IMG/VR virus record: IMGVR_UViG_3300031566_000111
Location: 1-43,306 of that record
Length of the DNA: 43,306 nt
Source of the DNA: a virus
Direction: 5' to 3' (one strand)
Part shown: positions 1 through 43,306 of the stretch, one piece after another
How the letters are laid out: every line of letters starts with the position of its first letter
Numbering within the stretch: position 1 is the first letter of the stretch
Notes under the pieces: generated by a model
Databases searched by the model: none
What the model was told of the DNA's origin: nothing
What the model saw: only the letters and a program-made list of their open reading frames with translations
Program-made: the position numbers and the translations under genes

Positions 1-160
1 TGAGGCCCAGGCATACGTCGATAAAGTAAAGTCTGCCGGCAGAATCGAAGACCCTCACGGGTCAGGTTATGACATCGACCCCTCCTCTGTGAAGATGGTT
101 GATCTTCGGGACTACAATCGAGATCCTGCTACCTTCGTCAACATGATGCGGTATCTGCCG
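1..160. repeat. Terminal redundancy, left copy (circular assembly overlap)
   Basis: These 160 bases are repeated at 43147-43306 with one difference: T at 34 against C at 43180. The difference changes a Ser codon TCT to TCC and is silent. Because the repeat lies inside one open frame, it is best read as the overlap of a circularly closed assembly, not as a physical packaging end. Confidence 0.9.
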
Positions 161-1963
161 GCACTCAAGGCGCAGTTCGACCAGGAAGGGATGAGCGACT
201 TTAAGGCCTTTGCTCAGGAAATCTCAAGCGAATACTTCAAGCGGTTCGCATCCGGCCGGTTTTCCCACAGGAACAACGTGCCTGGGCACAGCGTAGACTA
301 TCAGCGGGCACTCAAGTCCTACCTCCACTCTGTTCCCTGGAGCCTCCTGAAAAGGTTCAGCCGACCCGCAGTTGAAGACGTTATCGCTGGCCTTCCTTCC
401 GGCCGGCGCAACTATGCAAGAGACCTGGTTCAGTTCACGTTTGGTGAGAAGGATTACGAGGGGAAGATCAACCGTGGAATCAGGCGTGGAATGTACGACT
501 ACTTCCTCGGGCTCAAGCCTTCCTTTGGTATTCTCAACCTCACACAGAGAGTCCAGACGCTTCTTCCTTGGGCCTACCATAAGGCCAGAGGAGGGGGAGT
601 CAAGTCTCTCATGGAGGCACAGGGCAAGGAGTTGTCGTTCTGGCGTTACTATGCCAAGCAAAGGAAAAACATGGGCCTGTCCGAGGCCATCCGGAAAGCG
701 ACACACCTAGACGGATCGAAGATATTCGACATCACCGACACTCGGGTCCTGACAAAACTCCTGGAGATGGGCGAGCTCGGAGCCCTCCGTCACAAGGAGA
801 TCACAGGAGAGAGCCAGTCAAACGTCATTGAGAAGCTGGGCTTTTGGTCAGAGCGTTCGAACCGTATCGTCTCGGCCTTGGCCGGGTCAGCAATCGCAAA
901 GAGGATGAACCTGAATCCCTACGAGGCAGTCGAGTATGCGAGGGAAGCGGTGCAGCAGACGCAGTTTATCTACTCGAAGTCAACCCGGATGCCCATCGCT
1001 CGAGGGTGGAAGGCTCCGCTCTTTGTATTCAAGAGCTTCTCTCTCAACTACCTCAGCCTGATGAGGGACTTCGCCAGGACGAAGGACATCCCTGCCCTTT
1101 CGATGGGTGTTGCCATCTTCGGAGCCATGTCCGGACTCGGTGGGACTATCGTCTACCCTATCCTGAAAGACATTGTTGGCACAGTCGCCGGCGCCATCGG
1201 TAAGAAGGAGGACTACTTCAAAACCATGGACGAGTTCGAGCGCAATCTCAACAAGCACACGAACGGGATGGTGATGTACGGCCTGCCGGCCATGCTTAAC
1301 ATACAGGGTGACTACGCCTTCGGTTCATCGGAACTCTTTGGCCTGGCTCCGCAGGGCCTCTATGATTCAGTCAAACAGTTCGGCCGGGACATCGGCAGGA
1401 AGGGGATTGACTGGTGGGAGAAGACGAAGCGACTCACCCCGACTGAGGTTCGCCACGTCCTCCGGGCCATCGATCTTTTCCAGGGCAAGCTCCCTCCAAC
1501 CGCAGACGGAAAGCCCCGAGTGAGGGACGATATTCTACAGCGCACACCGAAGCATCTCCGCTCCTACGTGAAAGAAATCATTGACGAGCTCCCCACAATA
1601 GAGGATATTTCTACATGGGAAAAGGTCATGTACGGCATCGGCTTCCCCACCACAAAGATGACGAAGTACAGCGAGGGAAGTTACCGAGCCAAGAAGATCG
1701 GCCAGCTCGGGAGAGAGCAGAAGGGTGACACACAAAAGGTCATTGGAAAGATGATGGCGCAGAGCTTAAAGGACAACGAGGCTCTTTCCCTGAGGCTTTC
1801 CCGGATGACCCCGACTGATTTTAAAAAGGCTTTCAACGGGCTCCTCAAACAGATGCCCGAACGCTCAAGGAATAAAATTAAAGAGATGATAATGGACTGG
1901 AGAGAGAAGGGGAATCCAATAACTTTCTCATCCGTCCTTGGACATCTTCAAGATTACTTATAA
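1..1963 (+). CDS. Giant polyvalent ejection protein, C-terminal part (continues from 37727..43306)
   Basis: This is the last quarter of the gene that begins at 37727. The window ends overlap, and the frame (codons starting at position 2) is the same as the frame reaching 43306. The joined protein is about 2460 residues, and this part is residues 1808-2460. It is rich in charged helices. At about residues 2140-2200 (window 1000-1200) there is a hydrophobic stretch after the motif APLFVFKSFSLNYLSL, which resembles the C-terminal domain class of large polyvalent phage proteins (LPD38-like, by eye). Such proteins are packaged in the capsid and injected with the DNA. A GTG at 89 could be mistaken for a start, but coding continues upstream without a stop. 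The stop at 1961-1963 is followed at once by the ribosome site of the transglycosylase gene. Confidence 0.85.
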   Translation, partial: EAQAYVDKVKSAGRIEDPHGSGYDIDPSSVKMVDLRDYNRDPATFVNMMRYLPALKAQFDQEGMSDFKAFAQEISSEYFKRFASGRFSHRNNVPGHSVDYQRALKSYLHSVPWSLLKRFSRPAVEDVIAGLPSGRRNYARDLVQFTFGEKDYEGKINRGIRRGMYDYFLGLKPSFGILNLTQRVQTLLPWAYHKARGGGVKSLMEAQGKELSFWRYYAKQRKNMGLSEAIRKATHLDGSKIFDITDTRVLTKLLEMGELGALRHKEITGESQSNVIEKLGFWSERSNRIVSALAGSAIAKRMNLNPYEAVEYAREAVQQTQFIYSKSTRMPIARGWKAPLFVFKSFSLNYLSLMRDFARTKDIPALSMGVAIFGAMSGLGGTIVYPILKDIVGTVAGAIGKKEDYFKTMDEFERNLNKHTNGMVMYGLPAMLNIQGDYAFGSSELFGLAPQGLYDSVKQFGRDIGRKGIDWWEKTKRLTPTEVRHVLRAIDLFQGKLPPTADGKPRVRDDILQRTPKHLRSYVKEIIDELPTIEDISTWEKVMYGIGFPTTKMTKYSEGSYRAKKIGQLGREQKGDTQKVIGKMMAQSLKDNEALSLRLSRMTPTDFKKAFNGLLKQMPERSRNKIKEMIMDWREKGNPITFSSVLGHLQDYL

Positions 1964-9151: not shown

Positions 9152-9219
9152 AATATTCTCCCATTTAATTTTCTTCTTCCCTAGCCCTGCCCTTTCGGAC
9201 AACGATACCTTTCACGCTA

Positions 9220-9633
9220 TCATTCTGTCATTTTGCACCTCTCCTCGAAGTCGTCAATTGCCGAGTGAAGAGATCGGAAGTAATGACCATAAGCACAGTC
9301 ATGCTTGTCAGCACCGCACCACCATGTGATGAAGCATGTCTCACTGTTGTCATCGAAAGCAAGGACGATGTATCCCGTCCTCCGTCCTTTCACCTCCTCC
9401 TCCACATGGAAGTCGATCACCATCGCTCCGTTCGGAAGGATGAGCCCCTTCTTCATGAGAGGAGCCTCTGCCATCTTGAGACGTAGTTCTGACCCGGCTT
9501 CGCCACAAGTCAGGAACCCCTCGACCACCTCTTCGATGCGCCGAGAGACCTTTGTGTACGAGCCCGCAATCATTTCGTCATCGCGATCACGACCAGTATT
9601 GATGGACACGCTTAGTATTGGATAGCCCTTCAT
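9220..9633 (-). CDS. Hypothetical early protein
   Basis: This 137-residue protein has four cysteines in its last third (ETCFITWWCGADKHDC) and ends with YFRSLHSAIDDFEERCKMTE. The F-x-TW ... GHYF ... A-x-x-DF-x-x-R pattern is of a kind I have seen in small phage proteins of unknown role, but I cannot name the family. A TATGGAGGT ribosome site precedes ATG 9633. It lies between the ParB-like gene and the run of very small early genes. Confidence 0.65.
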   Translation of the reverse strand: MKGYPILSVSINTGRDRDDEMIAGSYTKVSRRIEEVVEGFLTCGEAGSELRLKMAEAPLMKKGLILPNGAMVIDFHVEEEVKGRRTGYIVLAFDDNSETCFITWWCGADKHDCAYGHYFRSLHSAIDDFEERCKMTE

Positions 9634-9669
9634 GTTTGTACCTCCATATAATGACTTAGGTCTGGAAAT

Positions 9670-9927
9670 TTAGACCGCATCTTTCTTGATGTCGAAGATT
9701 GATCTGCCTGTCATAATGAGGATAGGCCAAACCGGGCATGTAATCCCGAGCCGTTCCATAACCGCCATCGCACCACACAGAAAGTCAGCCTCGCTCTTGA
9801 GTGCACCAACTGTATGCCTCCTTGTCATCACGTCCTCGATTGCCGTACACAGTGCCTTGCGGTCATCCTCCTTCAAATCAACCTGTTGGATGGGATTATC
9901 TCCCCACTTCTGTTCTTGGTAGTTCAT
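9670..9927 (-). CDS. Hypothetical early protein
   Basis: This 85-residue protein starts MNYQEQKWGDNPIQQVDLKE, with a helical centre (ALCTAIEDVMTRRHTVGALK) and a hydrophobic stretch (FLCGAMAVMERLGITCPVWP) too broken to be a sure membrane helix. ATG 9927 overlaps the stop of the gene upstream (ATGA), with GAGGAGG just before. No family recognised. Confidence 0.65.
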   Translation of the reverse strand: MNYQEQKWGDNPIQQVDLKEDDRKALCTAIEDVMTRRHTVGALKSEADFLCGAMAVMERLGITCPVWPILIMTGRSIFDIKKDAV

Positions 9928-10115
9928 TCGTCCTCCTCACATTTTTTCTCGACTTCGAAGCCACCGTTCTTTACATCGAACTGTACCGAAACAATCTGAG
10001 AGTGTTCCTCCTTCGGTATGTCCAACTGTTGAAGGATGTAATCGAAGTAATGAGTCCCTTCGCTGTCCTTGTTGTCTGAATAATCAGACCTGTCAATTGT
10101 CACGTACATAGCCAT
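9924..10115 (-). CDS. Small acidic hypothetical protein
   Basis: This 63-residue protein begins MAMYVTIDRSDYSDNKDSEG and ends CEEDE. It is acidic overall with a β-type ending (IVSVQFDVKNGGFEVEKK). AATAAGGAGC precedes ATG 10115. It is coupled to the next gene by ATGA. No function can be assigned; small acidic early phage proteins often target host enzymes, which is only a general consideration. Confidence 0.6.
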   Translation of the reverse strand: MAMYVTIDRSDYSDNKDSEGTHYFDYILQQLDIPKEEHSQIVSVQFDVKNGGFEVEKKCEEDE

Positions 10116-10125
10116 GATAAGCTCC

Positions 10126-10749
10126 TTATTTGAGATATTCGATCACGTCCGCACCGTCTTCTTCCCGTGTCCTCCAACACCGCAGACAGTCCAGACATTT
10201 TCCACCACAGTTGACCTTGTCCCTGAGATTGAACGGAGAGTCCTTGAAGATCGGAGTGAACGTCCGCTCAAAACCTCCCGGCAGTGACGGCTCCAGATTT
10301 ATCCTTCTCGCAGAATAAACCAACATGAGATTCTCAGGCTTTTTGATGTTCAATTCTGCAATTAGTTGGCTCCGCTTTGTGAACAGACAGAACGTTGTGT
10401 CAGGATTTGCCACCGCAATTCTTGTCAGATTGAAATAGTGACAGTGATTGATCAATTCCCCGTGCGAAGAAAACCGGGCATACAGATGATTCGTCCTCGG
10501 AAGGTCGTGATCTTTGATGATGCCTCTGCTGAGTATCCTCCCATACTCTGCAAATAATGGCTCCGCATTCTTTCTGCATGAGGACAACATCTTGATCGAA
10601 TAGCATTGCCGACAGATGATGTCAGCACTCATCTTGTAATCGCCCGACATCCTCATGCAGAATTCATTCTGAAACGGACTTGTGTTGATGGATGGAATCC
10701 CCTCCATCTTTCCGCTTCCCCTCGAAAACTTCAACACACCTTTTGTCAT
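10126..10749 (-). CDS. Cysteine-rich Gp88-like phage protein, possible Fe-S protein
   Basis: This 207-residue protein starts at ATG 10749, which overlaps the upstream stop (ATGA). After GKMEGIPSINTSPFQNEFCM comes a cysteine cluster IICRQCYSIKMLSSC. The middle part has ARFSSHGELINHCHYFNLTR followed by NPDTTFCLFTKRSQLI. The protein ends with NCGGKCLDCLRCW, a C-x3-C-x2-C-x2-C cluster. A cysteine-rich start, an H-x-GE segment and an NPD-x-F-x-x-F-TK segment resemble phage Gp88/DUF5131-type proteins, some of which are thought to bind iron-sulfur clusters. The match is by eye and modest. The final cluster contains a C-x3-C-x2-C spacing as in radical SAM enzymes but at the wrong end of the protein. 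Confidence 0.6.
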   Translation of the reverse strand: MTKGVLKFSRGSGKMEGIPSINTSPFQNEFCMRMSGDYKMSADIICRQCYSIKMLSSCRKNAEPLFAEYGRILSRGIIKDHDLPRTNHLYARFSSHGELINHCHYFNLTRIAVANPDTTFCLFTKRSQLIAELNIKKPENLMLVYSARRINLEPSLPGGFERTFTPIFKDSPFNLRDKVNCGGKCLDCLRCWRTREEDGADVIEYLK

Positions 10750-11060
10750 TTGAGACCTCTCTTCTGCAGTGCTTTGTACCATCCAAGAGGAGAGCGAATC
10801 TTCCGCAGTTTCTTTTTTGAGTACAGAGAGAAATTCGCCTTTTGTGGATTCCCTTCGAAGTCGTTGAAGATAATCTTCAACTCAAAAAGGAATGTACCAG
10901 AAGACAACTGGTTTTTTGTCACCGTAATTTCTTCAACATCATGGATGTTTGCGTCAATCCTCTCAAACCTCACCTTCTCCCCGTCTTCAAAGGAAATCGC
11001 CACATTCCCTCCGTTGATGCAGTACCGCCATTCGTTGATCTGAAGCTTGTCAAAATACAT
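10746..11060 (-). CDS. Hypothetical early protein
   Basis: This 104-residue protein begins MYFDKLQINEWRYCINGGNV. The start ATG 11060 is chosen for the TGAGGAGGAAT upstream; a longer frame adds only six residues. The predicted fold is largely β (VAISFEDGEKVRFERIDANI, FLFELKIIFNDF) with a basic C-terminal helix (SKKKLRKIRSPLGWYKALQK). ATGA overlap with the gene downstream shows co-translation. No family recognised. Confidence 0.65.
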   Translation of the reverse strand: MYFDKLQINEWRYCINGGNVAISFEDGEKVRFERIDANIHDVEEITVTKNQLSSGTFLFELKIIFNDFEGNPQKANFSLYSKKKLRKIRSPLGWYKALQKRGLK

Positions 11061-26593: not shown

Positions 26594-27310
26594 ATGACCA
26601 AAGCTCAAATCCGGACGGCTGTCCGGAATCTTATGAAGGAGCAGTCTACGGATGCGGGGGCCCTCCTTGGTTCCGGCAATACGATGATTGACGACTTCAT
26701 CGATGATGCCGCAGGGCTTGTTCTCCTCGACCTTATTAAGCAACTCCCGACTAGGTTCACTTCAACCGAGTCAATCTCCCTGGAGGCCGGCACAGCCAAC
26801 TATGATCTCACCGCGACGTGGATGACGATTCTTGATATTTTAAAAACCGTCACGGGCCAAAGGCCAAGGCCAATTCCATACGTCGAAATCCAGGAAAAGG
26901 CTGACATCGAGATCCTCCACGGGCATACGGCCGCAGACCCGAAAGGGTTCACCCTGATCGGGAAAACGATCTATTTCTATCCGACGCCATCTGAGGATAA
27001 GGACGATTATTGTACGGCATTATTTCATGTCGCAGAAACCGAACCGCTTCCGGATGCAGGCCCGACCTACATTCCCGCCATCGCCCACCGCTGTATCGTC
27101 TATAAGGCCTGCGATTTGGCCGCCGTCATGTCGGACGCAAAGACGAGCCCGTTTGAAAAACTGTATGAACGAAGGATTGTAAAGTGCATTGAGATTCTCG
27201 GGGCCCAGGTTCATCAACCTCGATTCCTGGGTGGCTCTTTTATGGACAGGATTGTGGGGGACGCCAGGGACCCCGCCTTCTTTGATTTAACAGGAATCAT
27301 CGATGATTGA
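26594..27310 (+). CDS. Head-tail adaptor (P22 gp4-like)
   Basis: This 238-residue protein begins MTKAQIRTAVRNLMKEQSTD and has the adaptor pattern: an N-terminal helix pair ending in DDFIDDAAGLVLLDLI, then a β-part (TSTESISLEAGTANYDLTAT) and a helical end (HRCIVYKACDLAAVM). These proteins dock under the portal and bind the nozzle. TAGGAGGTCTC precedes ATG 26594. It overlaps the nozzle gene by 8 bases. Confidence 0.75.
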   Translation: MTKAQIRTAVRNLMKEQSTDAGALLGSGNTMIDDFIDDAAGLVLLDLIKQLPTRFTSTESISLEAGTANYDLTATWMTILDILKTVTGQRPRPIPYVEIQEKADIEILHGHTAADPKGFTLIGKTIYFYPTPSEDKDDYCTALFHVAETEPLPDAGPTYIPAIAHRCIVYKACDLAAVMSDAKTSPFEKLYERRIVKCIEILGAQVHQPRFLGGSFMDRIVGDARDPAFFDLTGIIDD

Positions 27311-29951
27311 CAGCACCCCTTTGACGCAAATCCACTTTGAGCCCACTGGTGGTGTCAACGAAGTTGCGGCCGTCACAAAGGTTCCGCTCACCGCTCTAAT
27401 CGAGATGGAGAACTTCCGTCTTTCTGACGATGGGGCGAGGATCGAGAAAAGGGACGGATCGGCCAGTGTCGCCACCGCTGCAACCTTCGGCGCGAAAAAG
27501 ATTTTCGCCTATCACACATACTACGACGGAACCCCGGCGTTCTGCCAGCTTGTCGTGACCGAGGAAAAGGTATGGAGGAAGATCGCCGCCGGAAGCTGGG
27601 CTGCGATTCATACCTGGGCCTCAACCCTGGACCACCCGGTTCGTCCCCTGGAGATTCAGGACAAACAGATCATCGTCACCGAAATCGAGAACATTATGAT
27701 CCTTCCGGACGGGACGAAAGTACAGCTTGGGATCACTCCCCCCTCTACGGCGATCGCCCTTGCTGAGTCCTATGATTCCACCCTGCTCGATGAAGACATG
27801 GCCGTGATCACGGATTGGACCGATGATGATGACGGCGCCGGGGCAAGCACCCAGGCCACCTATGACAGTCGGTCCACCATGAAGCTCCTCAATACAGGAA
27901 GCGCCGGGGATCGTGCCAGGAGGTACAGGACTGTTTCCAACATTGGAGCAAAGTACACCGCCGAAGTGACGATGTATATTGCCACGAACGGAATCTATCA
28001 GGACGGAAATTATTTTGAGATCGCCATCTACAACGGCCGCGTGAGGGCCAGGGTCAGGATCGACACGAAGGACGTCTACGTTTATTCTGGGGCCTACTGG
28101 GTTTCGGCCGGATACAAACCAAAGGAAGACGAGTGGGTTACTTGGAGAATTCACGTCAACACCGAGGACCCGGATGACGAGTTCGCTGAGGTCTATGCCG
28201 GGAATGAATTCGTTTGCCAGCTTTACGTCTCAGATAAAGATGAGACAAACGTAGGGAAGGTCATGGTCCATCTCTACGGGATTACAGTCGCTACAGAGGC
28301 CTATATTGATTCGATAAAAATTGGGGATTCGAGCTCCGGTATGCTCAACGGACTTTACCGTTATGCCGTTACATTCTTCCGAGGCGGGAATTATCCGAAT
28401 GAATCAAACCCCCTTAAAAGCCTTATCGGAACACCCTCTCAAACAGGAAGCGGAACGGACGATTTGACCGTGAGCTCGGATTCCTCATATACGGGGTCAA
28501 AGGACAGAACCATCCGGGTTACGATCGATGGCACCACCCCGGACACGATGAAGTGGTCAGAAGATGGGGGGACCACCTGGAATTCAACAGGCATCCCTCT
28601 GTCCTCAACGATGTACCTGAGTTACGGTGTCATTCTGGCCTGGGCCTCGACAACCGGCCACACCCTCAATGACTATTGGGACATCTCCTGTGATGCCTTT
28701 GTCGCGGCGGCCTGCCACCAAAAGGTCACTATCACCAGCATACCTGTTTCGAGCGATGCCCAGGTCACGGCTCGGCGCATTTACAGAACGGTGTCGGGAG
28801 GGACGGCCTATTATCTTGTGGCAACGATCAACGACAATACGACCACCACCTTTGTCGATAATATCAGAGATGCTGTTCTCGGAACCGATATGCGTGAAGA
28901 CCACGATATTGCCCCCCTCGGGAAGTACGCAGAATGGTGGGACGATGCCCTCTGGATTGCCGATCAGGACGAGAACATCACCTATCACAGCCGGATTAAT
29001 TATCCGGACGCTTTCGACATTTCAAGTAGGTTTGTGAGCGCAAGGGACGGCCGTGGCCATGATAAGATCACTCAGATTCTCAACTATAAAACATACCTGT
29101 TCGTTTTCAAACGCCACTCCATCCAAATGATCAGGAAAAAACTCACAAGCTACTATGGGATTTACGAGGTTTGCAAGGGATACGGGGCAATCGCTCCCTG
29201 GAGCGTCATCGAGGTCTACGGCCTGGTCATGTTCCTTTCTCACCGGGGATGGGAAGTGTTCAACGGGTGTTCCGCCATCGAGGACGAGTTCAGCCGGCCG
29301 ATCCTCCCGTTCATAAAGACTATCGACAAGTCCAGCAGTAAACTCGAGTACATCTCAACGGGCCACCTTCACAGCAGGTCCGAGGTGTGGCTCGCTATCC
29401 CGGACAGAAAGAGCAGCGCCGCCGATAAGGTCGCTGTCTGCAATTACGGCAAGGGGATATTTTATTATTTCGATTTCCCGGAAGTCCCGAGCACGCTCAA
29501 TGAAATCACCGACAGTTCGAATGACGTACAGCTTGTGATGGGATCTCGGGATGGAAACGTTTTTACCTGTGACTCGGGCTTGACGGATGCCGGAACGAGC
29601 ATTTCTGCGAAGGCTAGGATTCCCTGGACGACCTTCCACAAATATGCCCAGGCCAGGCTTTTTGAGATCGAGTACGAACTCCCCGCAGACTATAATCTCA
29701 CCGTGAATTTTTACGTAAACTTTGAACACGCCGCGCAGAGGACGGCCACCTTTGCCGGATCCACGCCGGCGACAGTTACCGACAGGTCGATCCGGCTCCC
29801 GATTAAAAATTTTGCAGAACTCGGTATCAACGGGAAGTATCACGCCATAAAGTTTACAAATGCCGAGGCCATTGGCTCTGACCTAAAGATCAACTGGTTC
29901 GATCTTTACGTAAACGTCTTCGCCCGGAAGCTAGAGGTGGAGGGAAACTGA
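27303..29951 (+). CDS. Tail nozzle (P22 gp10-like) with inserted ConA-like domain
   Basis: This 882-residue protein begins with the motif ENFRLSDDGARIEKRDG (36-52), as in P22 gp10-type DNA-stabilisation/nozzle proteins, followed by β-propeller-like repeats. Residues about 155-345 look inserted: a jelly-roll-like set of strands (ITDWTDDDDGAGASTQ, EVTMYIATNGIYQDGNYFEI, VRARVRIDTKDVYVY, EAYIDSIKIGDS), much as in LamG or concanavalin-like lectin domains. The nozzle resumes with LNGLYRYAVTFFRGG. It probably closes the head and could also bind a surface sugar. It is coupled at both ends (8-base overlap, TGATG). Confidence 0.75.
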   Translation: MIDSTPLTQIHFEPTGGVNEVAAVTKVPLTALIEMENFRLSDDGARIEKRDGSASVATAATFGAKKIFAYHTYYDGTPAFCQLVVTEEKVWRKIAAGSWAAIHTWASTLDHPVRPLEIQDKQIIVTEIENIMILPDGTKVQLGITPPSTAIALAESYDSTLLDEDMAVITDWTDDDDGAGASTQATYDSRSTMKLLNTGSAGDRARRYRTVSNIGAKYTAEVTMYIATNGIYQDGNYFEIAIYNGRVRARVRIDTKDVYVYSGAYWVSAGYKPKEDEWVTWRIHVNTEDPDDEFAEVYAGNEFVCQLYVSDKDETNVGKVMVHLYGITVATEAYIDSIKIGDSSSGMLNGLYRYAVTFFRGGNYPNESNPLKSLIGTPSQTGSGTDDLTVSSDSSYTGSKDRTIRVTIDGTTPDTMKWSEDGGTTWNSTGIPLSSTMYLSYGVILAWASTTGHTLNDYWDISCDAFVAAACHQKVTITSIPVSSDAQVTARRIYRTVSGGTAYYLVATINDNTTTTFVDNIRDAVLGTDMREDHDIAPLGKYAEWWDDALWIADQDENITYHSRINYPDAFDISSRFVSARDGRGHDKITQILNYKTYLFVFKRHSIQMIRKKLTSYYGIYEVCKGYGAIAPWSVIEVYGLVMFLSHRGWEVFNGCSAIEDEFSRPILPFIKTIDKSSSKLEYISTGHLHSRSEVWLAIPDRKSSAADKVAVCNYGKGIFYYFDFPEVPSTLNEITDSSNDVQLVMGSRDGNVFTCDSGLTDAGTSISAKARIPWTTFHKYAQARLFEIEYELPADYNLTVNFYVNFEHAAQRTATFAGSTPATVTDRSIRLPIKNFAELGINGKYHAIKFTNAEAIGSDLKINWFDLYVNVFARKLEVEGN

Positions 29952-30442
29952 TGCCAACGCTCAATGAATACGAGGCGATCAAGTCCGCTGTGCTCAATCA
30001 GCAGGTTGCCCAGGACATCACGCCTCAGAGCCCATTTTCTGATCAGTCCATCAATAACTGTGTTTTGAATGACGTTGCCGGCTATGACCTTGCCGATAGG
30101 GTCGGGCTCCCCGGAGACAACCTAAAAATCACCATCGATGACGTTGACGGAATGACATACCTGAAACTCGACGACACCGACAATACTTACAAGGGGAAGG
30201 CCGGGAAGTTCCCGATGGTCAAGGATGGCGAGGACGGTCTCGAATTTTCAGACGGCGGAGGGGAGAGCCTCTGGAAGACACGCGGTCGCCATATCTACAA
30301 CAAAAACTACCGGGACGGCTGTGTCGGGATGGGCACGAACGATCCGAACGAGGACTACAAGGCTCACGTCGAAGGAGACTTCCTGACCAGGGCTGCCGCT
30401 TCCGGAAGTGAAGTGTGGTCCGATGTTGTGGGGAGAGATTAA
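29951..30442 (+). CDS. Small tail or fibre-associated protein
   Basis: This 163-residue protein begins MPTLNEYEAIKSAVLNQQVA. It contains DNLKITIDDVDGMTYLKLDD and a fibre-like Gly-rich part, then RHIYNKNYRDGCVGMGTNDP. It is coupled to the nozzle (TGATG) and to the fibre (TAATG), so it is likely a fibre base or connector. No exact family recognised. Confidence 0.6.
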   Translation: MPTLNEYEAIKSAVLNQQVAQDITPQSPFSDQSINNCVLNDVAGYDLADRVGLPGDNLKITIDDVDGMTYLKLDDTDNTYKGKAGKFPMVKDGEDGLEFSDGGGESLWKTRGRHIYNKNYRDGCVGMGTNDPNEDYKAHVEGDFLTRAAASGSEVWSDVVGRD

Positions 30443-32679
30443 TGGCCGTTCCGTATCGGGAATTCACCCAGGCCGATGACGAGATCGAGCTTCTGGCGGC
30501 CCACTGTACCGACCCGGACGATAACTCTTACAATCTTTATACGGATTGGGAGGACGCGAATGATGCTCCCGCCCTGAAAATCGGTGGCAAGAAAAACGCT
30601 TCCGGATATGAACTTTGGTGCCTCAATATCAGGCCAGACGGAGACCTTGTTTCCGGGGCCGACGTCGGATGCTTTGCGAAAATAACGGCCACCATGACCC
30701 TTGAATTGAACAATCCGTCACTCTTGACGTTTCGGAGTACGAGAGGGATTTGCAACACAGTCTGGCATCCAACCTTAGTGACCGGTAGATATTATGATGG
30801 GTCGAACATATGGGCCACCTACCCGATCTACGCCAACAAAGAATACGAAGTTAATGTATATGGCGATACCGATGTCACCGTGTCGGCTCTTCCAAAAACG
30901 CTTACGGTTTACTGCCCGGCTTGCGAAGCGGGCGCAGGGAAGGTCTTTTTCGGTGGAGACCCAACGGGGTCCGGATACCAGTATGACGACGACCTTTTTG
31001 ATCGAGGGTTTTGGTTCAGGCTGTCGAATTACGTGAACTCAGGCGGCGATCACTTTATAACGAGTTGGAGCGCCGGCCAGGAGTTCTCTCTTTATCTCAC
31101 GGTCTTCGTCGCTCGGGTTTATTACTTCAACCCCGTTGTTAGCGCCGTCAGCCTGACCGAGCTAAGTGCGGCCGGAGGGGAAACGATCGTTCTTACTGGC
31201 CTTGGGTTTGATAACGCAGATGCCGACATTGAAGAAGGATCAACCGTTTCTCATGGGGCATGGGTGGATGATGTCTATGAGATAGACTTCGAGGGACAGG
31301 AAGGACAGGGAACAACCACCATCAAGTCCGCAGATTCAGACTTCACGATCGACAGCAACGCGCAGATCACGCTCACAACTCCGGCTCTTTCCGAGGGGAC
31401 CTATCACATGGTCCTCTATAAAAACCGGACCGCCGGCGGCCGGCACGAAACAGAGAGAATCGTCAAGGCATACGTCGGAGACTGGACCCTGACTGGGGCA
31501 GAGATGGTTGCCGGGACAAGGACGATCTTTACTGTCGCAGTGGGGACAGAGTTTGGGCGCAGATGGAGCTTTATCGACTCAACCCCGGCCCTTCAAACTC
31601 TATGGAAGATGAGTTCATTCACGGGCGTTCTTACTGGAAACCTGACGCTTGTTAATATGCAGACCGAGAGCACCATTTGGACCGCCAGGATCACTGACGA
31701 CGTGCTCCGCCTTCATACCCAAGTGGAGGTGGAAACAGGGGTCCGCTTTGTGGATTCAGCCAGGGCTTATGCCGGGATCAAGGCCCCTGCCGCATACGCC
31801 TCATCGGTCGATTATAAGCTCCCCACGGCTGACGGAACGAACCTCCAGGCCCTTTGTACGGATGGAAACGCACAGCTTTCTTGGAGGAGTGTTGGGAACG
31901 TGGCTGGTCCGCTTTCCTCTACAGACCATGCGCTTGCCCGGTGGGACGGGACAAACGGAAGGCTACTCCAAGACTCATCCCTGATTCTTACTGATGCCGG
32001 GCTCCTTTTGTTGGGCGAAACCATAAACACTTTTATGACGATTGGCCTGACCCTCAACCAGGCCGCGAATAATGACGAAATACTTGCCATGAAGTCCTCC
32101 AGTATCGCCCATGGATGTACGGACTTTGCCGAGACTGACACCTGGGGCCGGACGATAAAGCTCAACTTTACAAACGGGGGGCTCGGCCTAGATGGATTTG
32201 GAGCGGGAGCTGTCGGCGCCGCGTTACGTGGATATTATGGGACAGACAACACGGCCAAAACGACAGCGGCCCTGGCCTCCGTTAATATAATCGGCTATAA
32301 AATCAGCGGGACAGGGATCACGAACGCCGCGGCAGATCAAAATATTCTTGCCGTCCGGACACAAAGGGGGGGGGCCCTTACAACGGTTATGATTGTCGAT
32401 GAGGACGGAGACATTTACTACGACGGAGCACTCACCAATTATGATGATTTCGATGACGCCTTGGCCTGCCGGGATGCGAAGGAAATGCTTTCCGGGGGGC
32501 TTAGGGGGTTTGTGAAATACAACAGAAAGGCTCTTGAGGAAATGGGGGTCGTTTCTGACGGAGGCTTCATTTCAAACAAGGGCATAACCGCTCTCATGCT
32601 TGGGGCGATCGCGCAGTTGAGGGAAAGAAACGATAGGTTAGAATCGCAAATTTTGTTACTACAGGAGGCTAGAAGTTGA
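30442..32679 (+). CDS. Tail fibre with IPT/TIG-like domain
   Basis: This 745-residue protein starts at ATG 30442 overlapping the previous stop (TAATG). Residues about 230-330 (FNPVVSAVSLTELSAAGGET then IVLTGLGFDNADAD) match an IPT/TIG immunoglobulin-like domain. The middle is β-rich with repeats typical of trimeric fibres (SSTDHALARWDGTNGRLLQD). The C-terminal end (RDAKEMLSGG, then ITALMLGAIAQLRERNDRLE) is a helical trimerisation or chaperone-like tail. It should recognise the host surface. A ribosome site for the next gene lies at its 3' end. Confidence 0.75.
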   Translation: MAVPYREFTQADDEIELLAAHCTDPDDNSYNLYTDWEDANDAPALKIGGKKNASGYELWCLNIRPDGDLVSGADVGCFAKITATMTLELNNPSLLTFRSTRGICNTVWHPTLVTGRYYDGSNIWATYPIYANKEYEVNVYGDTDVTVSALPKTLTVYCPACEAGAGKVFFGGDPTGSGYQYDDDLFDRGFWFRLSNYVNSGGDHFITSWSAGQEFSLYLTVFVARVYYFNPVVSAVSLTELSAAGGETIVLTGLGFDNADADIEEGSTVSHGAWVDDVYEIDFEGQEGQGTTTIKSADSDFTIDSNAQITLTTPALSEGTYHMVLYKNRTAGGRHETERIVKAYVGDWTLTGAEMVAGTRTIFTVAVGTEFGRRWSFIDSTPALQTLWKMSSFTGVLTGNLTLVNMQTESTIWTARITDDVLRLHTQVEVETGVRFVDSARAYAGIKAPAAYASSVDYKLPTADGTNLQALCTDGNAQLSWRSVGNVAGPLSSTDHALARWDGTNGRLLQDSSLILTDAGLLLLGETINTFMTIGLTLNQAANNDEILAMKSSSIAHGCTDFAETDTWGRTIKLNFTNGGLGLDGFGAGAVGAALRGYYGTDNTAKTTAALASVNIIGYKISGTGITNAAADQNILAVRTQRGGALTTVMIVDEDGDIYYDGALTNYDDFDDALACRDAKEMLSGGLRGFVKYNRKALEEMGVVSDGGFISNKGITALMLGAIAQLRERNDRLESQILLLQEARS

Positions 32680-32987: not shown

Positions 32988-33293
32988 ATGATCGACCTCA
33001 ATTATCAGATTAAAAACCTTGACACGGGCGAGGTTATCGCCCTTCCTAGCGGGAAGCCGTACACGCTGAGACAGGCCCTTCTCGCGGCCTTGGGGAACGA
33101 ATACGGAGGAACCCAGAAAATAAAACAACAGATGCACAGGGTCGCCACGAAGATTCGTGGGGTTGACAGGCAGCTTGATCTATCAGAAGATGAACTTGGA
33201 ATCGTCGAGATTTCTATTGGCAGATTCTTTAGTGCCCCGATGATCTTGGGGCAGATATGGGACTGCCTGGGAATAGAAAAGGAGGGAAAATGA
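32988..33293 (+). CDS. Hypothetical protein before the glycosidase-like gene
   Basis: This 101-residue protein begins MIDLNYQIKNLDTGEVIALP and is α/β with an acidic middle (LDLSEDELGIVEISIGRFFS). It overlaps the next gene by ATGA. No family recognised; a structural or assembly role is suggested by place. Confidence 0.6.
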   Translation: MIDLNYQIKNLDTGEVIALPSGKPYTLRQALLAALGNEYGGTQKIKQQMHRVATKIRGVDRQLDLSEDELGIVEISIGRFFSAPMILGQIWDCLGIEKEGK

Positions 33294-34717
33294 AGTTTAC
33301 AAAGCATTGGTTTTTTGGTGTCAACAGTCTTTGGGCGAAGTTTTGCCGCTTCATCGGAAAGGAAAGGTGGATCCACAAAAGGCCGACCGTCACGGTGGAG
33401 TGTTGCCCTCGGTGGGGGACTAACCCTGAGACGGCCCAGGGGGGAACGGACCTTTGCCGTAATCATTACGGAACCCTTGTGGATGTCGAATTTTTGAAAG
33501 GTAAAGAGCCGGCAGACTGCCCACTCAACCACGTTGTTTTGACAGAGCGGCCCGTCTGTCCGCTCACGAAGTACAAGAGGAACCACTGGTGTCCAGACGC
33601 TATCAAGGTGCTGATGTCGGACGAAGAATGGACGAACCTTGCCTGGTGCGCCGTCCACAAAAAGCCGGTCACGCCTGAAATACCGAAGAAGGTTCCCGCA
33701 GTCCTGAGGGTTCCCCAGATCGTGAGAGAACTCGGCTACCCTGTTTTTGCATCGGCCACCTTCATCCCGGCCTACGGGAACATTGAGGACAAGTATCTCG
33801 ACAGGAAGAAGTTCAACGAGGAAATCCTCGACTTCCTTTGCGAGGAGGCGATCGACAACACGGACCGCATCTTCTTCATGGGAAACTGGGAGAACAACGT
33901 CAACAAAAAGCTGAGCTCTCCGTACATGAAAACGGCCGATGGAAAATATGACCTCAAGACCTGGAATATGGCTCACTTCGACAAGATCAAGAAGGACATC
34001 GCAGAGAGAGCAAAGCGGTTCCGGTTCTCGATCATCACCCTCATCGACAACTGTAGCACGCACGTCAACGTTCCCGGCTTTTGGTCTACCCATCCCTGGA
34101 ATGGCGACTGCAACGTGAACGGAACCTCAAGCTGGAGGCCCTCCGTCTATCACTTCTATGAACCCGAACACCAGGATAAAAAGGGGATACCCGAATCCTG
34201 GAAGCGCATCGAGGAGTACGTCCGGCGGGTTGTTGCAGAGCTCTACAGTGAGTTCTACCCCCTCATCGGATTCGAGATTTGCAACGAAGGACAGGGGGCT
34301 CACGACCTTCATAAGCTGATCCGGGGATGGCTGAAAGAGGGGGGAGTTGAGGAGAACTGGCGCGTCCTGACTTCCTTCGATGGGGTGTACGACGAGTTCT
34401 ACAAAAAGGAGATGGACTTCCTGAATTATTCCATCCACGGCATCGATTCCCTCATCGGATTCGAGGAAAAGAAAAAACTCGTTTTGAGTGGACATAAATT
34501 TCTGGCCTCAGGAGACGGCACCAAGCCCGACTACGAGAGGCCGAGGGTTTACAAGGAGCTTGTGTACCAATTCCTCTTGGACGGAGCCCTCGGGTTCGAG
34601 CTCAATGAGCGGTTCTATTGGCACAACAAGTCTGTTTTCAAAATCGCAGACCTCGACAAAGAGGTAATGAAAGCTGTCGGTGAAGGGCTCAGGAGGTGGG
34701 CTCAAGAAAAGCTATAA
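33290..34717 (+). CDS. Glycoside hydrolase-like (clan A TIM barrel) tail-module protein with Cys-rich N-terminus
   Basis: This 475-residue protein starts at ATG 33290 behind AAAAGGAGGG. Residues 38-120 hold nine cysteines (from ECCPRWG through CPLTKYKRNHWCPDA to LAWC), probably a zinc- or disulfide-stabilised domain. Residues about 150-475 follow the clan GH-A order: LDRKKFNEEILDFLCEEAID, then TWNMAHFDKIKKDIAERAKR, and LIGFEICNEG with E333 as candidate acid/base. The nucleophile is uncertain; E391/E392 (GFEEKK) or E437 (GFELNE) are candidates. It probably degrades a cell-surface polysaccharide. No signal peptide is seen, so it is likely part of the virion. Confidence 0.65.
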   Translation: MKFTKHWFFGVNSLWAKFCRFIGKERWIHKRPTVTVECCPRWGTNPETAQGGTDLCRNHYGTLVDVEFLKGKEPADCPLNHVVLTERPVCPLTKYKRNHWCPDAIKVLMSDEEWTNLAWCAVHKKPVTPEIPKKVPAVLRVPQIVRELGYPVFASATFIPAYGNIEDKYLDRKKFNEEILDFLCEEAIDNTDRIFFMGNWENNVNKKLSSPYMKTADGKYDLKTWNMAHFDKIKKDIAERAKRFRFSIITLIDNCSTHVNVPGFWSTHPWNGDCNVNGTSSWRPSVYHFYEPEHQDKKGIPESWKRIEEYVRRVVAELYSEFYPLIGFEICNEGQGAHDLHKLIRGWLKEGGVEENWRVLTSFDGVYDEFYKKEMDFLNYSIHGIDSLIGFEEKKKLVLSGHKFLASGDGTKPDYERPRVYKELVYQFLLDGALGFELNERFYWHNKSVFKIADLDKEVMKAVGEGLRRWAQEKL

Positions 34718-34733: not shown

Positions 34734-35087
34734 ATGGACATCGGCACAATTTTGGCCTTGGTTATGGCCGGGATGAGCATGTTTGGGAAGAAGCCTACCC
34801 CGGAGTCACAGCAAACCACGCAGGAGACAACCACAGAAACGCCCCGTATGGGCTACCAGAGCCCGCTGACGGGCATGATGGACATGGGGATGGCCGAGAC
34901 CCTTCTCAAGGGCCTCGGGGCTTACGGTAACTGGGGAGGACAAAACATCGCCTCACCCTGGATTCAGAAGATGCTCGACGCCCTCGGGACTCAGTGGCCC
35001 GACGTTCTCCAGAACGCAACGACACCTGGGAGAAACCCTAATGCGATACCGGGACCGAAGACGAAGCTCCCGCTGTTAGGAGCTTAA
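34734..35087 (+). CDS. Small virion-module protein
   Basis: This 117-residue protein starts at ATG 34734 with ACGGAGGTTGAT upstream; an in-frame upstream start overlaps the hydrolase and lacks this. It has an N-terminal hydrophobic helix (IGTILALVMAGMSMFG), a Thr/Gln/Glu-rich stretch and a Gly/Met-rich rest (LTGMMDMGMAETLLKGLGAY). The composition fits a small injected membrane-active protein. Confidence 0.6.
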   Translation: MDIGTILALVMAGMSMFGKKPTPESQQTTQETTTETPRMGYQSPLTGMMDMGMAETLLKGLGAYGNWGGQNIASPWIQKMLDALGTQWPDVLQNATTPGRNPNAIPGPKTKLPLLGA

Positions 35088-35088
35088 G

Positions 35089-36411
35089 ATGTCGTACTTC
35101 GGACAAAGAACATTAACGGCGGGAACCGCAACTAATCCGGTCGATCCAACCACTAGCCCGACTGGACTTGGGGACAGGACTAAGCTCCCTTCCGGCGAAC
35201 CCGAAGCACCGATCCGGGAAACGGGCTGTCCGGACGGCTATAAGGGCCAAAACGTTCAACAGGCGGACGGGTCGTGGGCTCTCCTCTCTCCGTGTAGGGC
35301 TGGATTCAAGCCAAAGAAAACCCCCTCCGGGGTAGTTTGGTGTTGCCCGGACGGAGGCGAGGGCGGCGGAGAAAACGGCTCTCCTTGCGAAGGTGGATAC
35401 AAGGGCCAGCAGGTTAAAGGAACAGACGGCAACTGGCACCTCCTTAGTCCCTGTAGAGATAAGCACAGCGCCAAGAAAGACTCAGCCGGAAACATTTGGT
35501 GCTGTCCTGAAAGGACCGAGCCTCAAGGGTGCGAGGGTGGACATCCGTTAGTCGGCACGTCTCAATGCGGGGAGGGGTTCCAACTCAAAAGAATCAACGG
35601 CTCTCCCTGGTGCTGTCCTACGACACCCCAAGGACAATCCTGTGAGGGCGGATACAAGCTGGCCGACAACCCCCTTCTTCCGGAAGGCGGGTCTCCGTGG
35701 GGCGAAACCCCAGGCTACAACAGGAATTTGGCCGAGGGTCACTGGGTTTACAAGGACGGCCAGTATTACAACGTGAACGATGTCATCGCTTTCCAAAACG
35801 GAACAGGCCCGGCGCCAACGTCTCTCGGCACTACGGCTTGTCGAAAAGGCTATGCCAAAAAGAGCATTAACGGCGAAGACTACTGCTGTCCCGAAGCCGG
35901 GCCGGGGCCAGACCCGGGTGACGAAGACCCGGATGCGGGGAAATGGTCCTTCTCCCCTGAAATGCAGGACTTCTTCAAGAACCTCATAGGGAGGGGACAG
36001 GAGTACCTGGCTCGGAGGCCGGGATATTCAGATCCCATGATGTCAAAGATGTTCGGGAGAGACTTCGATGTTCTTCGCCAACAGGGAGCAAACAGAACGA
36101 GTGAGGCAGAAAACTTCCTCTCCTCCCAGGGGCTCCTGGGAACCGGGGCCGCAAAGGACGTGATGGGGGATACCGCTTGGCAGACCGAGCGGGGAATTGG
36201 AGACCTTATGCGTGACCTTGCTATCTCGGCCGAGGACCGGAAAAGAACGGATCGCGCGGACTACACCGACATAGCGAATCGGATTTTCGGTTCCGGGATG
36301 AATTTCGAAACGATTGGAGAACAGCTCAACGCCGGCCGGAGGGGAGAGCAAACAGCTTATGTGGCTATGCTTCTCCAGTATCTCACTAGCCTCATGTCGG
36401 GCTGGCAATAG
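35089..36411 (+). CDS. Virion-module protein with four four-cysteine repeats
   Basis: This 440-residue protein carries four N-terminal repeats, each with Cys, Cys and a CC pair: C47-C69-C85/86, C100-C122-C138/139, C148-C160-C175/176 and C185-C251-C266/267. The first two share 21- and 15-residue spacings. Each ends W/Y-C-C-P and starts C-x-G-G-(Y/H) or similar, as in GCPDGYKG, PCEGGYKG, GCEGGHPL and SCEGGYKL. The C-terminal part (about 285-440) is helical without cysteine (EMQDFFKNLIGRGQEYLARR). The 16 cysteines fit small disulfide-linked modules, or metal sites. It sits between the glycosidase-like and ejection genes; no known family matched. Confidence 0.7.
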   Translation: MSYFGQRTLTAGTATNPVDPTTSPTGLGDRTKLPSGEPEAPIRETGCPDGYKGQNVQQADGSWALLSPCRAGFKPKKTPSGVVWCCPDGGEGGGENGSPCEGGYKGQQVKGTDGNWHLLSPCRDKHSAKKDSAGNIWCCPERTEPQGCEGGHPLVGTSQCGEGFQLKRINGSPWCCPTTPQGQSCEGGYKLADNPLLPEGGSPWGETPGYNRNLAEGHWVYKDGQYYNVNDVIAFQNGTGPAPTSLGTTACRKGYAKKSINGEDYCCPEAGPGPDPGDEDPDAGKWSFSPEMQDFFKNLIGRGQEYLARRPGYSDPMMSKMFGRDFDVLRQQGANRTSEAENFLSSQGLLGTGAAKDVMGDTAWQTERGIGDLMRDLAISAEDRKRTDRADYTDIANRIFGSGMNFETIGEQLNAGRRGEQTAYVAMLLQYLTSLMSGWQ

Positions 36412-36420
36412 GAGTAAACA

Positions 36421-36717
36421 ATGGACATCTCACAAATAATCGATATGCAAATGCAAAAGGCCGGGCAACCGTTGATCTCGAAATCGACGTCAACCCTCAC
36501 TCCTCCACAGAATAACTTCGATATGTCTATCCTTCCCCTGTTGATCATGGCGATTATAGGAGGAGGAGGAGGAGGCGACAAAAAAGGCCTCGGCCTTCCG
36601 GGAAACGAGTCATGGTATGGAGTAGACGGCGGGATGGGTGTCGGGCCCGGGTCTAACAGTATGACCCCGATGGGGCTTTTCAATATGCTGTCCGGGATCG
36701 GTAAGCAGTCTTACTAA
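36421..36717 (+). CDS. Small membrane-active virion-module protein
   Basis: This 98-residue protein begins MDISQIIDMQMQKAGQPLIS and has a hydrophobic helix (MSILPLLIMAIIGG, about 35-48) followed directly by six glycines, then a Gly/Met-rich end (GVDGGMGVGPGSNSMTPMGL). Its place between the cysteine protein and the ejection genes and its similarity in style to the 34734 product suggest one of the small injected proteins. Confidence 0.6.
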   Translation: MDISQIIDMQMQKAGQPLISKSTSTLTPPQNNFDMSILPLLIMAIIGGGGGGDKKGLGLPGNESWYGVDGGMGVGPGSNSMTPMGLFNMLSGIGKQSY

Positions 36718-40700: not shown

Positions 40701-43306
40701 GGCGCCAACGGACAGGCCAAGAGAAGCAGGGGCTCCCTCCTCCCACAGAGAAGCCCCCTGGACAGGCTGAGTTGGAGTTCGGTGAGGGAGAATTCAAGAG
40801 CATAGACTTGCGTGAGAACAAGACGTTCTTCGAATGGAAAGACAAGCCCATCAAGGACATCGAGGCCAACAAGGAAAAGATTGGCTGGCATCTTTACCGT
40901 GAGCTTATCTCCCACAAAAAGGAGATGATTGAACTCGAGAGGATGAAGGCCTATGAGACCCCGGAGAAGGGCGGAAAGCCTGGGCCCGAGGTTCTCGATG
41001 ACCTGTACGCAAGGAAGATCATCTCGGAAAAAGAATACAGAGACAGGCTCCGTGAACACTACGGCTATGACTCTATGGAGAAGGCCGAGGCTGAGATGGC
41101 CCAGGAAGCCGAGGCGAAAAGGAAGGCCCAGGCGGAGGTCCGCAGGGTTGAGCGGTATCGTGAACGAGGAGAGATGGCTCCCCAAAAACTTTACGAGCCG
41201 GAGAAGGTTAAGGAGCCCCCCAGTTTCAAGGACATTCGGGTTCCCTTTGATCCTGATGCGATCAGGCGTTTCCGGAACGCAGAGGGGAAGCGCATCCGTT
41301 GGCCGGAAGGATGGGAGAAAGGCTATCATCTGACCTGGGGGAGAGACCGTGTTGATCAGGCAGTCAAGGCCCTCCCGAAGGGATGGAAGTATCAGATTGG
41401 TCCAACAAACAAGGCCGACGTTTTTTGGGTGAAACTGGCCGGGTTCAAGGAAGGTGGCGGAGGAGAGATTCCTTCACCGAAAAAAGCCCTGAAAGAAGGC
41501 GGACTTCTTTTCCCGGTGGGTGAAGACATCTCCACCACTGTCAGGAAAATCCAGTTCGGTCAGACTCATTACGCCGTGAACGAAAAAGAGATTCCGGCAG
41601 ACAGCCTTGAGGCTATCCGGAAGGCCATCACTCCTCAGGAAATACGGGACGCCCTCGCCATCGAGGAAGCCAAGATTGCCAGGGCCACAACAGGGAAAGC
41701 CCTACTCACTTCCCGTGAGGCGGCCGACCTTATGTCAAGCGTTCTCAAGGACAGGAAGGTCGAGCATGAGATCATGGTTGGAGAGAACGATGCCGGCCAA
41801 GCCCATGCCTGGATTCAGATCGACAGGAAGGGTTACGATCCAACGAGCCAGGGACTCGGCAGTCCGGGTGAATCGATTGCCTACTATCATCCGGTAAACG
41901 CTCCTCGAGGGGCTGATCCCCGGCTCATGGACGCTCTCCCCATCCTCAGGAAATGGTCTCGGCTTATCCCTCGTCAACACTGGGGCCCCATCGTGGAGGC
42001 CGTGGGCGACAGATGGATTGGAGGCAAGGCCAAGGACCTCACCCTCGAGCATTTTATAAAACGGGAAGCGAAGATGCTGAGAGAAAAGAGGCCCCCCGAA
42101 AGACTCGAGAGAGAGAAGGGAGACCTCGGTCAGGAGCCCGAGACTGGATTCGGTGAGGTTCCGGAGGGAAAAAGCGCGACGGCCGGGTATGTCGAAAAGG
42201 CCGGGGAGGAGGCCGAGCTTTCAGATGTGAGGAAGGCCGTATCTGAGGTGCTCGACAGCCTCTCTGAGAAGGACAGGAAAGTTGCCGAGGCTTGGGACAT
42301 GACGGACAGGCAGCTTGGAGAGGAGCTCGGGGTGTCGCACACCCAGGCGAACAAGATGAGGCGTGACGTGTTCGACAAGATGCGCCGGAACCCGAAGGTC
42401 CAGGAGGCCGCTCGGCAAATGAGCGACAAGCTGGAGGTCCAGGAGGCCGGGGAGAAGGGGAAGGGAGACCCGAAGAAAGCCTACCTCAAGACCATCCATC
42501 GCATCATCAATATGCCAGAGTCTCTCCACTTCCAGGAGATTGAGGAACTCCCGCAGGGATGGAAGAAGGTCATCTCTGATTTCGGCAACAAGTTTGTTGA
42601 CTTCAAGGACGAACTGCTCGAGAACTGGGCAGCCGGCTCGAAGAAAGCGGCCGACCTGATCAGGCTCCCTCAGTGGTCTAAGTTCTACCGCCCCCTGGCT
42701 GAGAAACTGGTAGACATGGAGGCTGAATCAAACCGGGTGTCTGACAAGTCTTTCCGTATGGCCCAGGGGTTCTTCACTCGGGACAAGGATTCGATTAAAA
42801 GGTTTGGTCGCGCCATCGAGAGGGAGGAGGAGATCAACCGCAGGCTCCGTCCGGAAGAACTTGCCGAAGAATACGATATGACCCCCGCAGAGGCGAAGGC
42901 TTTCATCGGGATGACGAGAGCCCTCGACTTCATCGCTAAGAGATGGGCTCCCCGAGTGATGCGCCGGGCCGGTGTTGACGAGCAAAGGATTCTTGAATAC
43001 CTCAACAGCCTTGAGGCTCAGGGTGCTTACTGGCCTCACTTGAGATTCGGTAGGTACGGTGTCGTCACCAAGGGGATGAGCGCACAACGGGAGATGCCCT
43101 TCAAGAAACCTCCTACACTAGAGTTCACCGCCTTTGAGACGAAGCGTGAGGCCCAGGCATACGTCGATAAAGTAAAGTCCGCCGGCAGAATCGAAGACCC
43201 TCACGGGTCAGGTTATGACATCGACCCCTCCTCTGTGAAGATGGTTGATCTTCGGGACTACAATCGAGATCCTGCTACCTTCGTCAACATGATGCGGTAT
43301 CTGCCG
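37727..43306 (+). CDS. Giant polyvalent ejection protein, N-terminal part (continues at 1..1963)
   Basis: ATG 37727 follows CAGGAG at a 5-base spacing, inside the end of the previous gene; ATG 37703 is a weaker alternative. The frame stays open to the window end and joins position 2, giving about 2460 residues. Domains in order: a GSFSINGKVYVLPTMENGKK module (43-100) frequent in injected phage proteins; a hydrophobic region (240-350, LGGFTGFLATPMKIGKGVAA); LRHEIEHALD with the HExxH metalloprotease signature (H845, E846, H849); a transglutaminase-like signature with Ser in place of Cys (S1329, H1360, D1371); a σ-region-4-like helix-turn-helix (about 1508-1560); then the LPD38-like end. It is probably packaged in the head and injected, combining several host-directed functions. 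Confidence 0.85.
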   Translation, partial: MLQFTEKSPEQKSIAEKIADSLAAEASLSFPGQYPRGTGDLANSNVLLGSFSINGKVYVLPTMENGKKIYDPASVAHGYGLEKYPQFNSVKEAEAWIQENHGRVNEDGTLSGRPFSGGALPDPETLAAQLNQGYPEIDETKDPESIAQLLVQKDYEEMGAAPPAGYKELGGGLRQELPTKEVKKHMTDVGWSAFQNQKRQAAGKALATTANTMQRFWDSATLGFAKKLGVRLIEDENVPDDVLTTVLGELGGFTGFLATPMKIGKGVAAVMGGRLARLAKTPKIARWLKYAIEGPTALGVATAVSDIPSLSKQVNESGDKISTIQTIAQRFGSGAAFGAVFAVTGMSGIAKSKVVNQAISQVGSRVLGNLVGMYSPEILKGAALTNEELGRAFWEELTYSWFSRKSTNPKRMNAEIAKWEKETKTKVSQAVIERLARPEETRRAEPIEEAPAEGVVGLEAIPENAQENVLSILKFNRSMDKTYITFDKIKSHPVVMSGRVEAKTLADFLGKNGLNVTGVEEWQRTLKEQVSGEKPVPEPVPEPILQDASRQGLTPELEARLLGWREKNTADYADIVDFGFELGKNPDDIADYLSKTGIAVTGREEAPKPEVPGERVMRARRQIEGKVAEKEQPARFEFGEKGLSLEPEQAADLPEGRFNEWLESRIGKGVPAQIRDLTEAARAQTLRHVEGRQDLAPEERPTEEPSTERETPGVYLQRWAEKFGAKPWEMTQAEFHEVLNKKYKKSGEAWYLLIENVGQRTIERVGSSKPSDILDHYIQKYNVTELTLSLSKEPTTKNSLGTYRLYESWYGKMTGEISINEDAIASLANRHGVNKDALRAGALRHEIEHALDLSKRDYNSPTQVKESPSPGDSLIGYIRGWMKDHFANYAAFETDYLHRSLVREADKLGLKVPDNVKSDVRNRDAATYMGREFDKLLADTLAKITGEKTLPTFEEADSKAKREAEDRAFEKTPEYKEFKAGKISDQVARLRWRQRTGQEKQGLPPPTEKPPGQAELEFGEGEFKSIDLRENKTFFEWKDKPIKDIEANKEKIGWHLYRELISHKKEMIELERMKAYETPEKGGKPGPEVLDDLYARKIISEKEYRDRLREHYGYDSMEKAEAEMAQEAEAKRKAQAEVRRVERYRERGEMAPQKLYEPEKVKEPPSFKDIRVPFDPDAIRRFRNAEGKRIRWPEGWEKGYHLTWGRDRVDQAVKALPKGWKYQIGPTNKADVFWVKLAGFKEGGGGEIPSPKKALKEGGLLFPVGEDISTTVRKIQFGQTHYAVNEKEIPADSLEAIRKAITPQEIRDALAIEEAKIARATTGKALLTSREAADLMSSVLKDRKVEHEIMVGENDAGQAHAWIQIDRKGYDPTSQGLGSPGESIAYYHPVNAPRGADPRLMDALPILRKWSRLIPRQHWGPIVEAVGDRWIGGKAKDLTLEHFIKREAKMLREKRPPERLEREKGDLGQEPETGFGEVPEGKSATAGYVEKAGEEAELSDVRKAVSEVLDSLSEKDRKVAEAWDMTDRQLGEELGVSHTQANKMRRDVFDKMRRNPKVQEAARQMSDKLEVQEAGEKGKGDPKKAYLKTIHRIINMPESLHFQEIEELPQGWKKVISDFGNKFVDFKDELLENWAAGSKKAADLIRLPQWSKFYRPLAEKLVDMEAESNRVSDKSFRMAQGFFTRDKDSIKRFGRAIEREEEINRRLRPEELAEEYDMTPAEAKAFIGMTRALDFIAKRWAPRVMRRAGVDEQRILEYLNSLEAQGAYWPHLRFGRYGVVTKGMSAQREMPFKKPPTLEFTAFETKREAQAYVDKVKSAGRIEDPHGSGYDIDPSSVKMVDLRDYNRDPATFVNMMRYLP
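43147..43306. repeat. Terminal redundancy, right copy
   Basis: This repeats positions 1-160 with one silent difference (C at 43180, T at 34). It shows the genome is about 43,146 bases round and was assembled as a circle, or as circularly permuted molecules. Confidence 0.9.

Follow-up and report, generated by a model that had tools for sequence, protein, structure and literature searches.

The protein encoded at positions 35089-36411 of the window (the whole 43,306-nucleotide stretch analysed here) carries four copies of a four-cysteine module in an N-terminal insert, followed by a C-terminal domain (CTD) that recurs in all orthologues found. The four-module pattern is not a product of chance, and the blocks, though they differ in length, form a single repeat family. 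Our preferred interpretation, held with moderate confidence, is that this is an ejection-cassette protein in a gp14-like position, and that its four disulfide-rich modules would oxidise after expulsion or lysis.

A repeated four-cysteine module

The gene and its parts are as follows.

35089..36411, plus strand: whole ORF, 440 aa with an ATG start; cysteine-rich N-terminal region and helical C-terminal domain
35227..35349, plus strand: module 1, aa 47-87, CPDGYKGQNVQQADGSWALLSPCRAGFKPKKTPSGVVWCCP; kept in the orthologue of contig L010; AlphaFold2 pLDDT 70-80, two beta hairpins
35386..35508, plus strand: module 2, aa 100-140, CEGGYKGQQVKGTDGNWHLLSPCRDKHSAKKDSAGNIWCCP; identified from the cysteine pattern, the L010 comparison and the AlphaFold2 model
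35530..35619, plus strand: module 3, aa 148-177; first half shortened; missing from L010
35641..35892, plus strand: module 4, aa 185-268; 65 residues separate its first and second cysteines, an insertion shared by the L010 counterpart
35953..36408, plus strand: CTD, aa 289-440, helical and cysteine-free; kept in seven of seven orthologues

The 16 cysteines are located at residues 47, 69, 85 and 86; 100, 122, 138 and 139; 148, 160, 175 and 176; and 185, 251, 266 and 267 of the 440 aa protein. All four blocks follow the formula C-x(n)-C-x(14-15)-CC-P, with W or Y preceding the CC pair. Modules 1 and 2 show 56% mutual identity and the same spacing (21 and 15 residues between cysteines), while the corresponding distances are 11 and 14 in module 3 and 65 and 14 in module 4. 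Following 100,000 shuffles of residues 1-275, four CCP motifs were never obtained and four CC pairs were obtained 307 times. Alignments of all module pairs tested beat those of shuffled sequences, with the observed score reached in at most 1 of 2,000 shuffles. The sixteen cysteines in four blocks with W/Y-C-C-P ends that were noted in the preliminary description are therefore confirmed by their positions, by shuffling and by a diverged orthologue, and the spacing described there as nearly equal in the first two blocks is in fact identical. Internal two-fold symmetry of the module is weak, as most half pairs tested gave no significance. The linkers between modules (within the N-terminal 275 residues) are rich in glycine, proline and aspartate. 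Outside the cysteine blocks, the CTD of approximately 150 aa makes up about one third of the protein and contains the motifs FGRDF..R..G, GLLGTGA and AWQTER in common with the orthologues.

When AlphaFold2 was run with six sequences, modules 1-3 were each predicted as two beta hairpins (pLDDT 70-80), and a single-sequence run gave similar strands at lower confidence. Values for the CTD, module 4 and the linkers were 35-50, with the CTD helices predicted at low confidence. Searches of the PDB and BFVD with Foldseek and VIA-align returned no significant fold match; because the query models were of low confidence, these blanks are not evidence of a new fold. Follistatin and Pfs25 EGF chains ranked first in Foldseek with the full model as query, but without significance, and are not counted as support. 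TMEM55B RING-like domains appeared in low-ranked rows (one at E 2.8) and were rejected as noise.

The cysteine-rich protein had no match in Pfam, PHROGs, NCBIfam or PDB sequences, and when the modules were searched singly against Pfam the best match was cEGF (E 0.074, one member only). Whole-protein and CTD searches of a phage collection gave nothing meaningful, and a whole-protein search of viral contigs gave no relative. A tandem-module DNA pattern matched six stretches among 2.9 million viral contigs, with a true module only in the L010 contig. The tandem-module profile gave 71 pattern matches and 0 confirmed relatives in 84,980 genomes; because these tandem-module scans depend on short, exactly matching patterns, they could miss modules that have diverged further. 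The nozzle gene had no match in the same 84,980 genomes, and neither of these genome scans pointed to a host. From these searches, the module appears to belong to no catalogued family, as had been supposed, and the tandem form appears to be rare, with the same module type seen in one other contig only (L010).

Gene neighbourhood

Based on profile matches to TerL, a P22/SU10-type portal, a major head protein and a large tail protein, the window derives from a podophage. A direct repeat of approximately 160 bp (window 1-160 and 43147-43306) has one mismatch, at position 34. Because this repeat is found at both window ends, the record probably represents a nearly whole genome with terminal redundancy, in which the giant ORF from 37703 to the end continues into 89-1963. 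The genes flanking the cysteine-rich gene are as follows.

34734..35087, plus strand: short gene, hydrophobic N-terminus, cysteine-free; upstream partner in L046, L047, L006 and L060
36421..36717, plus strand: short gene, hydrophobic segment SILPLLIMAIIGGG, cysteine-free; downstream partner in L047, L006 and L060
36727..37773, plus strand: 348-aa gene, cysteine-free, in the gp15 position; syntenic genes of 350-415 aa in L006, L045, L048 and L060
37703..43306, plus strand: giant ORF, cysteine-free, polyvalent-type, in the gp16 position; runs past the window end
89..1963, plus strand: C-terminal part of the giant protein, beyond the 160-bp terminal repeat; resembles structural and PLxRFG proteins of Pseudomonas phages

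The resulting order (short hydrophobic gene, CTD gene, short hydrophobic gene, gene of approximately 350-415 aa, giant gene of 1,868+ to 3,011 aa) is shared with L006 and L060 and, over the stretch that these two contigs cover, with L046 and L047. In L045 and L048 both short genes are missing and the hydrophobic N-terminus is found on the CTD gene itself, and gene fission or fusion within the cassette is suggested by the sequences. The three genes of window 34734-36717 align in order with one gene in each of these contigs (L048:10560-11201 and L045:10295-10933). Relatives of the giant protein in Pseudomonas and Cellulophaga phages are annotated as virion structural proteins. The injection-region location proposed earlier is thus borne out by a conserved cassette leading to a giant polyvalent-type gene. 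The other cassette proteins read contain no cysteine; at 0.5% cysteine, the window partners, with some 3,000 residues in total, should contain approximately 15.

Other cysteine-containing or noteworthy genes were observed elsewhere. A 486-aa ORF at window 33257-34717 has 12 cysteines, among them an N-terminal CCP and several others, and its GFEICNEG stretch recalls glycoside hydrolases; searches of Pfam, PHROGs and NCBIfam gave it no match, and L046, L047, L006 and L060 lack it at the corresponding position. In the early region, genes on the minus strand at 10126-10782, 5905-7038, 7316-9202 and 4779-5783 have GP88-like (10 cysteines), RecT, ParB-like/methyltransferase-like and Cas4-type exonuclease matches. 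In L054, a distant relative, at 8994-10253 and from 13492 onwards, among fibre genes, lies an ORF that by eye resembles a fusion of glycosyltransferase-like and methyltransferase-like parts.

Orthologues and exchange of the insert

Distant contigs were reached via the tail gene at 27303-29951 and then with a CTD profile, and seven of these hold an orthologue. That of L010/L046 (446 aa, 16 cysteines) has three modules, one of them bearing the long insertion between its first two cysteines, plus a CX3C...CX3C pair. Between this protein and that of the window, the aligned cysteines are identical at 12 of 12 positions and the other residues at 53 of 153 (35%). Where the window-type module occurs, the cysteines are thus its most conserved residues. 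In the L023/L047 orthologue (350 aa, 18 cysteines), repeated CX3C and CxxxxxCPxGxxCxxGxC motifs replace the modules; specifically, L047:671-1720 (minus strand) encodes a helical-hairpin-like array (CX3CX6CX3C / CX3CX6CX3C) followed by the Dickkopf/WAP-like CxxxxxCPxGxxCxxGxC. The L006 and L011 orthologues (188 aa, 4 cysteines) have the CX3C...CX3C pair alone, while that of L060 (262 aa) has a single two-cysteine unit, CPNGILL...GRVWGCP, resembling half a module. The L045 (213 aa) and L048 (214 aa) orthologues are cysteine-free and both have a hydrophobic N-terminal segment. Cysteine counts for the window protein and the seven orthologues are 16, 16, 18, 4, 4, 2, 0 and 0, every one of them even.

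As orthologues carry the same, different or no cysteine motifs, the insert is an exchangeable part of a protein whose CTD is conserved, with four module copies in the window and three in L010. The preliminary description had treated the cysteines as a feature that close relatives should keep. This holds for the module-bearing relative at about 41% identity, which retains all aligned cysteines, but not for the more distant orthologues with other motifs or none.

Possible role and comparison with known systems

The N-terminus of the cysteine-rich protein has no hydrophobic export signal by hydropathy, and since the protein lacks such a signal its cysteines would be made in the reducing cytoplasm. 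This lack of a hydrophobic N-terminus for export during synthesis is consistent with the earlier suggestion that the protein folds only after leaving the cell. We infer a virion location, disulfides, a gp14-like role and a channel or ligand function, and the mechanism that we propose assumes a host with an outer membrane and periplasm. The protein would be synthesised in reduced form in the cytoplasm and packaged together with, or beside, the other ejection proteins. Once it reaches the oxidising envelope of the host on expulsion, or at cell lysis, each module would close its disulfides and become a compact unit of paired beta hairpins. The insert may then stabilise a nozzle extension or outer-membrane pore, or grip an envelope ligand, while the helical CTD would pack in the channel. 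A broader proposal, which we regard as possible and more tentative, is that such interchangeable disulfide modules stay reduced in the cell that makes them and become locked through periplasmic oxidation in the next host, so that host redox would be the folding trigger in genome delivery. An ejection protein with 16 conserved cysteines in swappable modules would mean that oxidative folding, whether in the host envelope or extracellularly, is part of DNA delivery in some phages, and its cysteines would offer a handle on the refolding of ejected proteins.

The strongest alternative, which is still rather unlikely, is the surface-exposed adhesin of the preliminary description: an exterior protein of the tail tip or capsid surface whose displayed modules oxidise in the medium after lysis and bind the cell surface. 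The change in copy number (four versus three) and the swapping of modules are typical of host-contact surfaces, a tail/fibre-like gene with a TIG domain (30415-32679) is located approximately 2.4 kb upstream, and a crass-like phage is known with disulfide-linked proteins on the outside of its tail (PMC10172136). However, gene order links the cysteine-rich gene to the cassette leading to the giant polyvalent gene rather than to the fibre genes, and a holin-like membrane gene intervenes. The cysteine-free orthologues of 213-214 aa with a hydrophobic N-terminus are unlike fibres, fold searches found no fibre or lectin match, and there was no PHROG or Pfam match to a known fibre or receptor-binding family. 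Position and conserved partners point instead to an internal ejection cassette, and none of the findings favours the adhesin over it.

It is improbable that each module is instead a metal (e.g. zinc) site that folds in the cytoplasm, where redox would be irrelevant. Four cysteines per module would suit one zinc, and RING-like domains are among the weak Foldseek rows. However, the CxxC knuckle is absent from the whole 440-aa sequence, two of the four cysteines are adjacent, and neither a zinc ribbon nor a zinc finger was matched in Pfam or the PDB. The replacements seen in orthologues (CX3C...CX3C pairs, the DKK/WAP-like motif and the two-cysteine hairpin) suit disulfides better. The lack of a CxxC knuckle and the even cysteine counts in every orthologue suggest that the modules are disulfide-like rather than zinc ribbons, as first proposed, and the zinc-ribbon or fibre-family match that was sought as a refutation of that proposal was not found. 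Least probable of all is an assembly or scaffold role confined to the producing cell, in which the protein does nothing after lysis and its cysteine-rich linker is under weak selection: AlphaFold2 confidence is low outside the modules and several orthologues have a different insert or none, but the retention of every aligned cysteine against 35% of other residues, the even counts and the prediction of modules 1-3 as folded units argue against it.

The preferred reading, an ejection protein in a gp14-like position, can be compared with characterized podophages. In these, the ejection operon encodes a gp14-like protein, next gp15 and next the larger gp16; gp14 proteins are 181-240 aa in length and gp14 homologues average only 19% identity (PMC8954989). 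The cassette described here has the same layout as T7 gp14-15-16 and P22 gp7-20-16, except for an extra short gene in between in the window. The orthologues of L045 (213 aa), L048 (214 aa), L006 and L011 (188 aa) fall within the gp14 size range, while those of L060 (262 aa) and the window (440 aa, owing to the insert) fall outside it. Like T7 gp14 and P22 gp7, the CTD is predicted to be helical and, in L045 and L048, follows an N-terminus that is hydrophobic by hydropathy; in contrast, the hydrophobic segments of the window are found (likewise by hydropathy only) in the two flanking small genes. Profile comparison of the CTD with T7 gp14 and P22 gp7 detected no sequence homology (hhalign probabilities <1%). 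Because homology was tested and none was detected, the likeness, which is drawn from gene order, size and hydrophobicity, would mean that the protein works like gp14 and not that it is gp14. In T7, antiparallel helix pairs of gp14 extend the nozzle through the outer membrane (PMC11784390). Phages are believed to package their polyvalent proteins and inject them (PMC5512222). The C-terminal part of the giant neighbour resembles large polyvalent virion proteins of the DarB/PLxRFG type and of F116-like Pseudomonas phages and Cellulophaga phi19:3, phages in which the cysteine-rich protein itself has no match.

EGF, WAP, Dickkopf, follistatin and granulin modules are likewise short, cysteine-framed, beta-hairpin and tandem, and granulins also end in WCCP. 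The window module differs from them in its four-cysteine C-C-CC framework and in the absence of a profile match. The CX3C...CX3C motif in the N-terminal region of the L006, L011, L010 and L023 orthologues recalls the twin CX3C hairpins of small Tim and CHCH proteins, a likeness of motif only, and is absent from the window protein.

Disulfides in ejection proteins have no precedent in the literature searched, and cysteine is not mentioned in two papers on these proteins (PMC8954989, PMC11784390). T7 gp15 and gp16 and P22 gp7, gp20 and gp16 contain no cysteine and T7 gp14 contains one, while the window protein has 16 within an insert of 230 residues. Among podophage ejection proteins, which in T7, P22 and this cassette are almost without cysteine, a member with 16 stands out.
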